Positions 10,988 to 14,998 of a DNA stretch of 64,000 bases are shown piece after piece. Within the stretch, counting starts at the first letter, position 1, and every line of letters starts with the position of its first letter. The notes beneath the pieces were generated by a model. It was given only the letters and a program-made list of their open reading frames with translations, had not been told where the DNA came from and made no database searches. This DNA comes from Streptomyces sp. S4.7 (lineage in GTDB: Bacteria > Actinomycetota > Actinomycetes > Streptomycetales > Streptomycetaceae): the NCBI RefSeq assembly GCF_010384365.1, contig NZ_CP048397.1, forward strand, positions 7,073,683-7,137,682, written 5' to 3'. The position numbers and the translations under genes were made by a program.

Positions 10988-11647
10988 TCAGCGGGTCTCC
11001 ACCAGCCGGGCGAAGACCACGACGTTGCCGTCGTAGCCGCCCGCCTTCGAGTAGCCGCCGCCACAGGTGATCACGCGCAGCTCGGAGTGGCCGGTGTCGC
11101 CGTACACCCGCGCGCCCGGGAAGTCGTTCTTGGAGAAGACCTCGACGCCGTAGATCTCGAACACGGCCACCCGCTCGTCGAATCGGGTGACTTCGATGTG
11201 CTCGCCCTTGCCCAGCGAGCCGAGACCGTAGAAGACCGCGGGGCCCGCCTGGTTGTCGACGTGGCCCACGACGACGGCGGTGCCGCGCTGGCCCGGGGCG
11301 ACGCCGTTCTGGTACCAGCCCGCCATGTTCGCGTCCTGCGGCGGCGGGGCGGCGATCCAGCCCTCCGGGTCGAGCCCCACGTCCATCACGGGCGCGTCGA
11401 CCTTGATCGCGGGAATCGTGACACGGGACATGGGTGCGTACGGCAGGGGCTTCACGATGGGGACGGTCCCGGGCTCGGCGACCTGCTCCTGCCGGGTGTC
11501 CAGCGCCGCCGCCGAGGCGGGCTGGGGCGGTCCGAGGGACACGTCGGCCCCGTTCCGCATCAGTGCGAGACCAGAGAGCATGACGAGAGCCAGGACGCCC
11601 CAGGGCGAGCGTTTCCTCGACTCCGAGCCGCTGTGGGCCAGGCCCAT
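10988..11647 (-). CDS. Class F sortase
   Basis: 219 aa. An N-terminal signal-anchor helix (about 15-32) is followed by a linker and a sortase beta-barrel. The catalytic triad is visible: His129 in VVVGHVDNQ, Cys195 in VITCGG and Arg214 in VVFARLV. The short single-domain form and TCGG fit class F (actinobacterial) sortases, which covalently attach secreted proteins to the cell wall. The next two secreted-protein genes (11969-12454 and 12578-13204) end in a related hydrophobic-plus-Arg tail and are the likely substrates, though neither has LPxTG or LAxTG. Confidence 0.88.
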   Translation of the reverse strand: MGLAHSGSESRKRSPWGVLALVMLSGLALMRNGADVSLGPPQPASAAALDTRQEQVAEPGTVPIVKPLPYAPMSRVTIPAIKVDAPVMDVGLDPEGWIAAPPPQDANMAGWYQNGVAPGQRGTAVVVGHVDNQAGPAVFYGLGSLGKGEHIEVTRFDERVAVFEIYGVEVFSKNDFPGARVYGDTGHSELRVITCGGGYSKAGGYDGNVVVFARLVETR

Positions 11648-11968
11648 GGTTCTCCCTTCGTGGGCGCCTGGTACGCACGCTAGGTGCGGTCGTCCGTGCC
11701 CGCGAGAGCTGGAGGGCGAATGGGTGGCGCGGCCGTCCGTGCCCGTGCCGCTGCCCCATTCGAGTAGTCGTCATATAAAAACTTCTGACGGTCTGTGACC
11801 TGCGGGTCCGTCAGGCCCGGTCAGGTTCTGTCGGCGTGTCGCCTCACCATGGTGGAGCAGTGCCGAAATGCGTCGAACGCGCCAGTTGGTGATGGTTCGT
11901 CATGGAGGGCGTACTCGTCGAATTTCCCGGAGCACCGCTTTGGGGCGTCTTCCACTGGAGGCTCAACG
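11648..11968. promoter_or_regulatory. Divergent promoter region between sortase and surface protein
   Basis: 321 nt without a credible gene. An A/T-rich stretch (TCATATAAAAACTTC at 11771-11785) stands out and may hold a promoter. The surface-protein start has GGAGG at 11957-11961. Confidence 0.4.
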
Positions 11969-12454
11969 ATGCGTGCTTCACGCGCTCTCATGGTGACTGC
12001 CGCGGCCTGCGCCGCCGTGGCGCTCTCCGCCCCACTGGCCGGGGCAACCAGCGGCCCGACCAACGTCCGCGTCAACCCGTTCGCCGTCCACCAGGGCGGG
12101 ACGCTGCACATCACCGTCGACGGCTGCGGCCACGGCGGCACTGTCACGTCCAACGCCTTCCCCACGGCGCAGCTCTCGGTGAACTCCTCGGGCCACTCGG
12201 AGGCCAGGGCCCGTATCCACAACAACGCCACGCCCGGTGACTACAACCTCTCCGTCAAGTGCAGCGACAACAGCCGCATCGCGACCCACCGCTTCCGGGT
12301 GCTCTCCGGCCAGGGCGCGGAGGGCGGCATCGGCGGCTCCATCGGCCCCAGCTCGACCGAGATGGCAATCGGGGCCGGTCTCGTCGGCACCGCGGCGGTC
12401 GGCGGCACGTACTTCATCGCACGTCGCCGTCGTGCGGGCAACGCGCTCGTCTGA
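11969..12454 (+). CDS. Secreted surface protein with C-terminal anchor, paralogue A
   Basis: 161 aa. GGAGG lies seven nt before ATG 11969. A Sec signal peptide (1-26) precedes an Ig-like domain with two Cys (DGCGHGG and VKCSD), likely a disulfide. The C-terminal anchor is GGIGGS, TEMAIGAGLV, a hydrophobic helix and RRRR. The layout matches a sortase substrate, but the pentapeptide is not LPxTG. The neighbour at 12578-13204 shares both the domain pattern (V-x-P...GG...TV-x-GC...ARA...PG-x-Y...C) and the anchor, so the two are paralogues. Function beyond surface display is unknown. Confidence 0.78.
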   Translation: MRASRALMVTAAACAAVALSAPLAGATSGPTNVRVNPFAVHQGGTLHITVDGCGHGGTVTSNAFPTAQLSVNSSGHSEARARIHNNATPGDYNLSVKCSDNSRIATHRFRVLSGQGAEGGIGGSIGPSSTEMAIGAGLVGTAAVGGTYFIARRRRAGNALV

Positions 12455-12473
12455 CCGGCCGGACCTCCGTACG

Positions 12474-12527
12474 CCGAACGTCCGTCGCCCCAAGCCTCCT
12501 CAGGGACTTGGGGCGACGGACGTTCGG
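12474..12527. terminator. Perfect 21-bp hairpin between the two surface-protein genes
   Basis: The arms 12474-12494 and 12507-12527 are exact reverse complements with a 12-nt loop. It sits between two convergent genes and should terminate both. Confidence 0.85.
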
Positions 12528-12577
12528 TCCGCTCCCCGGACCGGCGGGGGCGGGGAGGGCGGGGGACGGTGGAGGGG

Positions 12578-13204
12578 TCAGTGCAGACGGTTCGCCGAGC
12601 GACGGCGCACGACCAGAACGGTGCCGACGGTCGCCGCGGCGACCAGACCGGTCCCGATCGCGAGTTCCGTGCCGTTCATGCCCATGAAGCTGCCGCCGAG
12701 ACCGCCCTTGACGCCGCCGGGAGGCGCGATCGCCGTGGAGCTGGTGGTGCCCGTCCTGGTCGGGGTGGCGGTCGTCGTCCCGGTCGGCGACACGGTCGGG
12801 GTGGGAGTCACGGTCCCGGTCGGCGTCACGGTCGGGGACGGCGTCGGGGACGGGGTGCCGCCCGCGATGGTCAGGTCGGTGGTGCCCTCCTCGCCGTTGC
12901 AGATGAAGGTCACCTCGTACATCGCGCCGGGCTTGGCGTCCCAGAAGACGGAGGCGCGCGCCGATCCGCCTGAGGGGATGGGGGTGTCGTCGAACACCCC
13001 GGACTCGGCGGTGGCGGTGCTGCTGCAACCGGTGACCGTGAGGGTCACCTCCCCGCCTGCGGCGACGACCGAGGGGGTGACGGCGAAATCGAACGGTGGG
13101 TCGGGGGCCGCCGCCGTGGCCGTGGCCATGGCCACGGCAGGCGTAGTCAGTGCGAGTGCGGCCGCTCCCAGCAGAGCGGCGGACGCGGCACGTATCGCGC
13201 GCAT
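12578..13204 (-). CDS. Secreted surface protein with C-terminal anchor, paralogue B
   Basis: 208 aa. Signal peptide 1-31; Ig-like domain (about 38-115) with two Cys (TGCSS and FICNG) similar to the paralogue at 11969-12454. A Thr/Pro-rich stalk follows (about 118-160, repeats of TPSPTP/TPTGTVTPTP). The C-terminal anchor is GGLGGS, TELAIGTGLV, a hydrophobic helix and RRRS. The stalk would span the cell wall, as in classical sortase substrates. The start ATG 13204 is followed by a typical n-region. Function is unknown; cell-wall display by the nearby sortase is inferred. Confidence 0.78.
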   Translation of the reverse strand: MRAIRAASAALLGAAALALTTPAVAMATATAAAPDPPFDFAVTPSVVAAGGEVTLTVTGCSSTATAESGVFDDTPIPSGGSARASVFWDAKPGAMYEVTFICNGEEGTTDLTIAGGTPSPTPSPTVTPTGTVTPTPTVSPTGTTTATPTRTGTTSSTAIAPPGGVKGGLGGSFMGMNGTELAIGTGLVAAATVGTVLVVRRRSANRLH

Positions 13205-14212: not shown

Positions 14213-14797
14213 CTAGTGGGAACGGGGGCGAAGGATGGCGGCGGCCAGGACCGCGGGTGCCGTGAGCAGCAGCATGAGCATCACGACCGACGTGCTGTTC
14301 GTCGGCTGCCTGCGGGCCGGCGCCTTGTACGCGGGCAGTACCCGTACCTCCGGCGGATCGGCCTTCGGCGGCGGCGAAGGCTCCGGTGCCGGCGAGGGAG
14401 TGGCCGGTGACGGCGGAGGGGGCGGGTCCGCGGCGGGCCGGACCGGTGGCGGCGCGAGCCGTGGCGGTACGGGCACGGGCTCGGCGACCGCGGGCGGCTC
14501 GGGCTCCGGTTCGGGCCGGGGTGGCGGCGGTGAGGGTTCGGGCGGGGGCTCGGGAGACGGCGGCGGGGGCGGTGGCGGAGGCTCCGGCGGGGGCTCGGGA
14601 GACGGCGGGGGCGAGGGCGGCGGTGTAGGCGGCGGTGAGGGCCAACAGGGCCCGTCTCCGATGACGACGACCGCGCCCGCACCGCCCGGCCCGGTCCAGG
14701 CCGAGACGCAGACATCCGCGGCGGCCGGCACGGGCGTGCTGACTATCCACAGGAGCCCCGTGACCACCAGGGTCCGCACGACAAGTGATCGGTTCAC
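14213..14797 (-). CDS. Secreted Pro-rich protein with C-terminal membrane helix
   Basis: 194 aa from GTG 14797, which gives a standard signal peptide (MNRSLVVRTLVVTGLLWIV...AAA); ATG 14830 is a possible alternative. After a short segment with two Cys (DVCVSAW...GPCWP) comes about 100 residues of Pro/Glu/Ser repeats (PPP, PEPP), then a hydrophobic helix (VVMLMLLLTAPAVLAAAIL) and a short RPRSH tail. It looks like a wall-spanning stalk tethered to the membrane. Partner function with the co-transcribed DUF4239 protein is inferred only. Confidence 0.7.
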   Translation of the reverse strand: MNRSLVVRTLVVTGLLWIVSTPVPAAADVCVSAWTGPGGAGAVVVIGDGPCWPSPPPTPPPSPPPSPEPPPEPPPPPPPPSPEPPPEPSPPPPRPEPEPEPPAVAEPVPVPPRLAPPPVRPAADPPPPPSPATPSPAPEPSPPPKADPPEVRVLPAYKAPARRQPTNSTSVVMLMLLLTAPAVLAAAILRPRSH

Positions 14798-14998
14798 GGC
14801 CGCAGCATGAAACAACGCCGCCCGCGGCATGCCGAAATACCGCTGGATTCGCCTGATCGTGGGGAATCGGGGCTTTCCGCGTTTCTTTCTGAAGATTCTT
14901 TGAAGCCCGTTGAACGCTCCTCACCCTCCCGTGCGTACTTAAGACCATGAACGGCGCGGCCTGGCGCCTCAACTGGCTTACAAAATACGGGAGTTGAC

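Follow-up and report, generated by a model that had tools for sequence, protein, structure and literature searches.

We describe a locus in which a class F sortase, SrtF, is encoded beside two secreted proteins, P1 and P2, that are, judging from the sequences, very probably what it attaches. The three genes would form a dedicated, cis-encoded sortase-substrate set, with SrtF cleaving the C-terminal tails of P1 and P2 and joining both proteins to the cell wall; we give this reading a probability of roughly 0.78. The observations behind it are the linkage of the genes, the anatomy of the tails, the conservation of a motif within them, the presence of such tails on unrelated ectodomains, and the way in which motif and sortase clade vary together.

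Locus layout

The DNA analysed (the window) is a stretch of 64,000 nucleotides, positions 7,073,683 to 7,137,682 of contig NZ_CP048397.1, from Streptomyces sp. S4.7, whose genome of 7.94 Mb encodes five class F sortases. The features of the locus are listed below.

10988..11647, minus strand: srtF, class F sortase with an N-terminal transmembrane (TM) helix (residues 16-31) and a sortase domain, assigned by NF033748, AlphaFold, PDB fold and invariant columns
11024-11026, minus strand: codon of SrtF Asn208, at the usual Arg position ahead of strand b8
11063-11065, minus strand: codon of SrtF Cys195, invariant column
11261-11263, minus strand: codon of SrtF His129, invariant column
11648..11968, no strand: divergent intergenic region of 321 bp between srtF (minus) and P1 (plus), from the gene arrangement
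11969..12454, plus strand: P1, secreted two-Cys Ig-like protein of 161 amino acids, candidate SrtF substrate, from translation, orthologous loci and model
12314..12340, plus strand: putative sorting motif of P1, GAEG-GIGGS, residues 116-124, with G119, G120, G122 and G123 invariant in 65 sequences
12474..12527, no strand: perfect 21-bp inverted repeat, loop of 12 nt, in the gap where P1 and P2 converge, candidate two-way terminator
12578..13204, minus strand: P2, secreted two-Cys Ig-like protein of 208 amino acids with a Thr/Pro-rich linker, candidate SrtF substrate, from translation and orthologous loci
12689..12715, minus strand: putative sorting motif of P2, GVKG-GLGGS, residues 164-172, with G170 invariant and G168 and G171 kept in 54 of 55 sequences

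The divergent intergenic region presumably holds the promoters of both srtF and P1; no sigma-70 consensus was found at the expected places, this region included. For a terminator, the inverted repeat was the one feature obtained, and it is not accompanied by a T run. Every named relative of the locus comes from Streptomyces, and the three-gene layout recurs in many species: among 80 named orthologous loci, several of which end at contig borders, P1 is present as the divergent neighbour at 64 and P2 upstream of SrtF at about 50.

The sortase and its active site

SrtF is a class F sortase, as a preliminary description of this DNA had proposed. It scores 206.1 bits against NF033748, the NCBIfam class F model (curated cut-off 166), and its AlphaFold model (pLDDT 88.9) is a sortase beta-barrel that PDB sortases match at E values of about 1e-9, the top match being SrtA of A. 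oris (E 1.8e-9). No solved class F sortase structure could be found by sequence.

The usual catalytic triad, which the same description had reported, is present in two of its members only. His129 and Cys195 are invariant, but Asn208 replaces the Arg; all 87 Streptomyces class F sortases and all 47 from across the phylum share these three residues, and class E sortases encoded in these genomes have Arg at the position matching Asn208. The sole Arg nearby, R214, is kept in merely 16 of the 87. The predicted active site of SrtF is His-Cys-Asn, not His-Cys-Arg. Since the Arg-to-Asn swap is already known as a trait of actinobacterial class F sortases (PMC6998099), the missing canonical Arg is no argument against the activity of SrtF.

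Two neighbours with a shared tail

Both P1 and P2 begin with signal-peptide-like segments, and their two-Cys domains are related (BLASTP, 34% identity over 68 amino acids, E 4e-6). Residues 31-115 of P1 are modelled as an Ig-like beta-sandwich, C53 and C98 being the invariant Cys pair; matches to Ig and IPT/TIG domains (E about 1e-3) are weak and indicate the fold only, and the tail of the model is of low confidence (pLDDT <50). Two secreted neighbours with a related two-Cys Ig-like domain, as first described, are thus borne out.

The tails can be aligned apart from the domains (P1, GAEGGIGGS...TEMAIGAGLV...RRRR; P2, GVKGGLGGS...TELAIGTGLV...RRR), in both cases in the order motif, about 10 residues, single helix, Arg cluster. 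In P1 the helix spans residues 133-151 approximately and is followed by RRRR at 152-155, with R152-154 invariant in 65 sequences; in P2 the cluster is RRR at residues 200-202, with R200 and also G184 invariant in 55 sequences. The motif is the best conserved segment of either protein. Mean column entropy in P1 (64 named orthologues) is 0.46 bits for the motif, 0.91 for spacer and TM helix and 1.50 for the Ig-like domain; in P2 (about 50 orthologues) it is 0.83 for the motif, 1.54 for the Ig-like domain, 1.70 for the TM helix and 2.26 for the linker. Because GxxGGxGGS is the best conserved segment in the orthologues of both, the likeness of the two tails, noticed at the outset, is not due to chance.

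LPxTG and LAxTG pentapeptides are absent from the sequences of P1 and P2, as had been stated, and the LPxTG anchor models PF00746 and TIGR01167 gave no match to either protein up to E = 1. The nearest described family is NF058571 (GVDTG_CTERM, 'GVDTG sorting domain-containing protein'), which has the same tail shape of G-V-x-T-G, spacer, TM helix and Arg cluster; its name is silent on the acting sortase. P1 and P2 have this shape, with a class F sortase adjoining, but Gly replaces the Thr of the model in both, and they stay below its cut-off of 29 bits: 18.8 and 19.5 bits, respectively, as whole proteins (E about 1e-3), and 21.8 and 23.2 bits in the search of the whole genome. Tails at other class F loci do pass it (L006 and L167, 42.9 bits; L285, 37.8; L149, 31.1).

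Linkage of the tail to class F sortases

A profile (A3) built solely from five tails of the source genome was run on 15 unseen complete genomes. At E<=1e-3, 39 of its 55 matches fall no more than 2 kb from a class F sortase, against an expectation of 0.17, and at E<=1e-9 this holds for 25 of 28 (0.09 expected). The single genome among 101 of the genus that is without a class F sortase is without the A3 tail too.

In a census of the 87 class F sortases above cut-off in 16 genomes, with 4 kb of flank on each side, about 80 are accompanied, at a distance of 1.6 kb or less, by a gene for a secreted protein with such a tail, almost without exception immediately upstream and on the same strand; the motif expression was derived from the same loci that it counted, the controls being the zone from 1.6 to 4 kb, the A3 profile and the NCBI model. 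That outer zone holds 6 such tails in total over all 87 loci. The automatic count was 80, with one false partner (L134) included and one true partner (L166) left out. The automatic partner of L134 was discounted, as was that of L183, which is a transporter.

About 7 of the 87 sortases are without a recognised partner. Four of these (L094, L148, L150 and L152) all belong to one genome, G011; at L094 the beginning of an Ig-like protein and a TM tail are fused in one short open reading frame, which suggests decay or assembly errors.

A3 is too narrow outside Streptomyces, and GVDTG_CTERM was therefore used for the test across the phylum. Of 158 genomes, 23 encode a class F sortase above cut-off, and all 12 genomes with an above-cut-off GVDTG_CTERM match are among them (Fisher, 4e-12); with the genus itself left out, the figure is 7 of 7 (Fisher, 9e-8). 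Nineteen of the 24 GVDTG_CTERM matches have a class F sortase no more than 1 kb away. The preliminary description had asked whether the motif might be equally common without class F sortases, and by both measures (39/55 for A3; 12/12 genomes for GVDTG_CTERM) it is not. Genomes G152 and G246 have a weaker GVDTG match and no above-cut-off class F sortase; their class F-like matches reach 109 and 125 bits. Matches to GVDTG_CTERM in the source genome down to E = 1 were mostly LAETG proteins or chance and were left uncounted.

A proposed general signal and its variants

Within the source genome, the secreted neighbours of class F sortases end in HVRTGVGGS, GVKAGIGGS, PVRAGGGG and APDTG tails, in addition to the pair of the window, with one set per sortase. 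Distant class F sortases also have upstream partners, with GGVPAGGG, GGVATGAGG, GGVETGGGS, GPIDTGGGS and AVNTG. Compared across these loci, the general class F signal would be [GAPSH][VAPM]x[T/A/G]G followed by a brief spacer, a single TM helix and Arg residues; such a pentapeptide can be read as the LPxTG frame with residues one, two and four relaxed. The GG(I/L)GGS of P1 and P2 is its Gly variant, belonging to one sortase clade. The idea that the shared stretch is a new sorting signal is upheld in its link to class F sortases and has to be amended otherwise: the shape is already covered by NF058571, the core is wider than the stretch first picked out, and the TE(M/L)AIG part is specific to this type of locus, outside the core of the general signal.

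Proposed mechanism and alternative explanations

In the sortase scheme, a protein is secreted, arrested by a TM helix and Arg residues, attacked by the sortase Cys and transferred to a wall precursor. P1 and P2 would likewise be secreted and then retained in the membrane by the C-terminal helix and Arg cluster. Membrane-bound SrtF (His129/Cys195) would cut shortly ahead of the helix, at G-[V/A]-x-G↓G-x-G-G-S (arrow, cut), so that the putative scissile bond of P1 and P2 lies between two Gly residues, the Gly form of [GAPSH][VAPM]x[T/A/G]↓G. Cys195 would attack the bond that precedes the final Gly of the pentapeptide, giving an acyl-enzyme on Cys195, and the new C-terminus would be joined to the wall; in the wall precursor of Streptomyces, LL-diaminopimelate carries a Gly, whose amino group is the most likely acceptor. 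We infer the cleavage, the exact bond, the wall attachment, the acceptor, and the service of its own neighbour by each sortase from the comparisons above. Extended to the Actinomycetota, the class F sortases would probably, if with less assurance than for the locus itself, constitute phylum-wide, cis-encoded and largely one-to-one pairs with the signal [GAPSH][VAPM]x[T/A/G]↓G and an Asn-for-Arg site, the Gly-Gly bond being that of the clade found in the window.

The alternative that survives best accepts the tails as sorting signals but has them handled by a pool of class F sortases, or by class E sortases, rather than by the adjacent SrtF specifically. Genes unlinked to class F sortases bear the tail as well, also within the same genomes, which makes processing in trans, or by a different sortase, possible; service in trans is frequent among sortases, and class E sortases with LAxTG substrates are encoded in these genomes as well. 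Against it, the pairing is close to one to one, LAxTG tails are unlike these tails, and the motif classes match the sortase clades: the type of residue that precedes the Gly (T, A or G) requires 7 changes on the sortase tree, compared with 28-39 in 500 shuffles. Gly-type sortases cluster with a GVKAG clade (99% SH-aLRT, quick tree). Because co-inheritance of neighbours would yield the same agreement with the tree, it is to be read as consistency and not as specificity. We regard this alternative as possible but doubtful.

It is unlikely that P1 and P2 are ordinary surface proteins with a single TM helix, placed beside SrtF for regulatory or historical reasons and carrying a Gly-rich linker, while SrtF acts elsewhere. 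Gly-rich spacers ahead of TM helices are common in high-GC organisms, neighbours within an operon are inherited together, and deletion of all four class F sortases of Actinoplanes missouriensis gave no phenotype (PMC13251363), a result that also counts against the reading of a dedicated sortase-substrate set. However, fixed G-x-G-G positions would be unexpected in the linker of a free TM protein, and the motif is conserved above both TM helix and ectodomain. Moreover, throughout the phylum the neighbours of class F sortases combine unrelated ectodomains with one and the same signal shape, which is rare elsewhere; tails were found on two-Cys Ig-like, DUF4331 (506 bits), DUF4397 (59 bits), CHRD-like (under the gathering score) and low-complexity ectodomains.

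Processing of a GlyGly-CTERM-like tail by a rhomboid-type protease (rhombosortase), which the Gly-Gly before the C-terminal TM helix, common to both systems, and the weak resemblance of one partner tail to the GG_III-CTERM model (E 0.23) might suggest, is rejected as very improbable, in that GlyGly-CTERM proteins are rhomboid-processed whereas this genome has no rhombosortase above cut-off (best TIGR03902 score 49.1 bits, cut-off 84, the model having matches in all 14 controls), about 10 residues separate motif and helix here, and the tail is linked to class F sortases.

Relation to known systems

A sortase with its sorting signal is known as a kind of system, and the tail shape has been named by NCBIfam (NF058571); we found no open-access paper that ties such tails to class F sortases, or that treats GVDTG as a sorting signal. 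Subscription papers may contain an earlier mention.

The class E/LAxTG system of Streptomyces (SrtE1, SrtE2, chaplins) is likewise an actinobacterial anchoring system with a pentapeptide, TM helix and basic tail, and LAETG tails of that type are present in the same genomes. P1 and P2 differ from it in their pentapeptide, G[V/A]xGG, and SrtF in being of class F, with Asn for Arg. The enzyme of Cutibacterium (Propionibacterium) acnes is of the same class as SrtF and the sole class F enzyme for which in vitro work is reported; according to PMC13257024 (citing Di Girolamo 2019) it uses LPxTG, a point against the proposed reading. The partner tails described here are without LPxTG; the nearest form, APxTG, occurs next to one class F clade of Streptomyces.

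The role of class F sortases in Actinobacteria has been described as unknown, and the substrate searches in the papers that say so relied on LPxTG-like motifs or PF00746 (PMC13251363, PMC6998099); such searches miss the class F partner tails. For S. coelicolor, five class F enzymes are given in one source (PMC5148588) and two in another (PMC6998099). For nearly every Streptomyces class F sortase, the linkage of genes now points to a likely substrate with a defined pentapeptide. If the proposed reading is true, annotation could be corrected, P1 and P2 being under the present NCBI cut-off, and the class would offer an orthogonal ligase family, with Gly, Ala or Thr before the cleaved bond, usable for protein labelling.

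Additional observations

A further tail in the source genome, GARGGLGGS (G000:C1:5210502-5210627), has no class F sortase beside it. Four other unlinked proteins (L184, L191, L192 and L193) are short and secreted, with a D-rich two-Cys domain and a GVRGG-type tail; the domain looks excalibur-like by eye alone, and for L184 there is no Pfam support at E 0.01. Some class F partners have larger ectodomains, in contrast to the small Ig-like proteins: L149 (CHRD-like), L143 (a GVETG relative) and L164 (DUF4331).

At 14213-14830 (minus strand) the window encodes a proline-rich secreted protein with one TM helix and a basic C-terminus, in which the motif is absent. A similar proline-rich TM protein occurs near the orthologous locus L225, and the gene may be part of the neighbourhood.

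Partners of the GMHTG/GVHTG clade (L097, L125, L145, L110, L105 and L106) carry 2 to 5 copies of the putative sorting motif GG[MV]HTG[GS], counting the one at the C-terminus, and the spacing is often regular (45 residues in L097, about 32 in L125); the repeated copies could possibly serve as multiple cleavage or acceptor sites.
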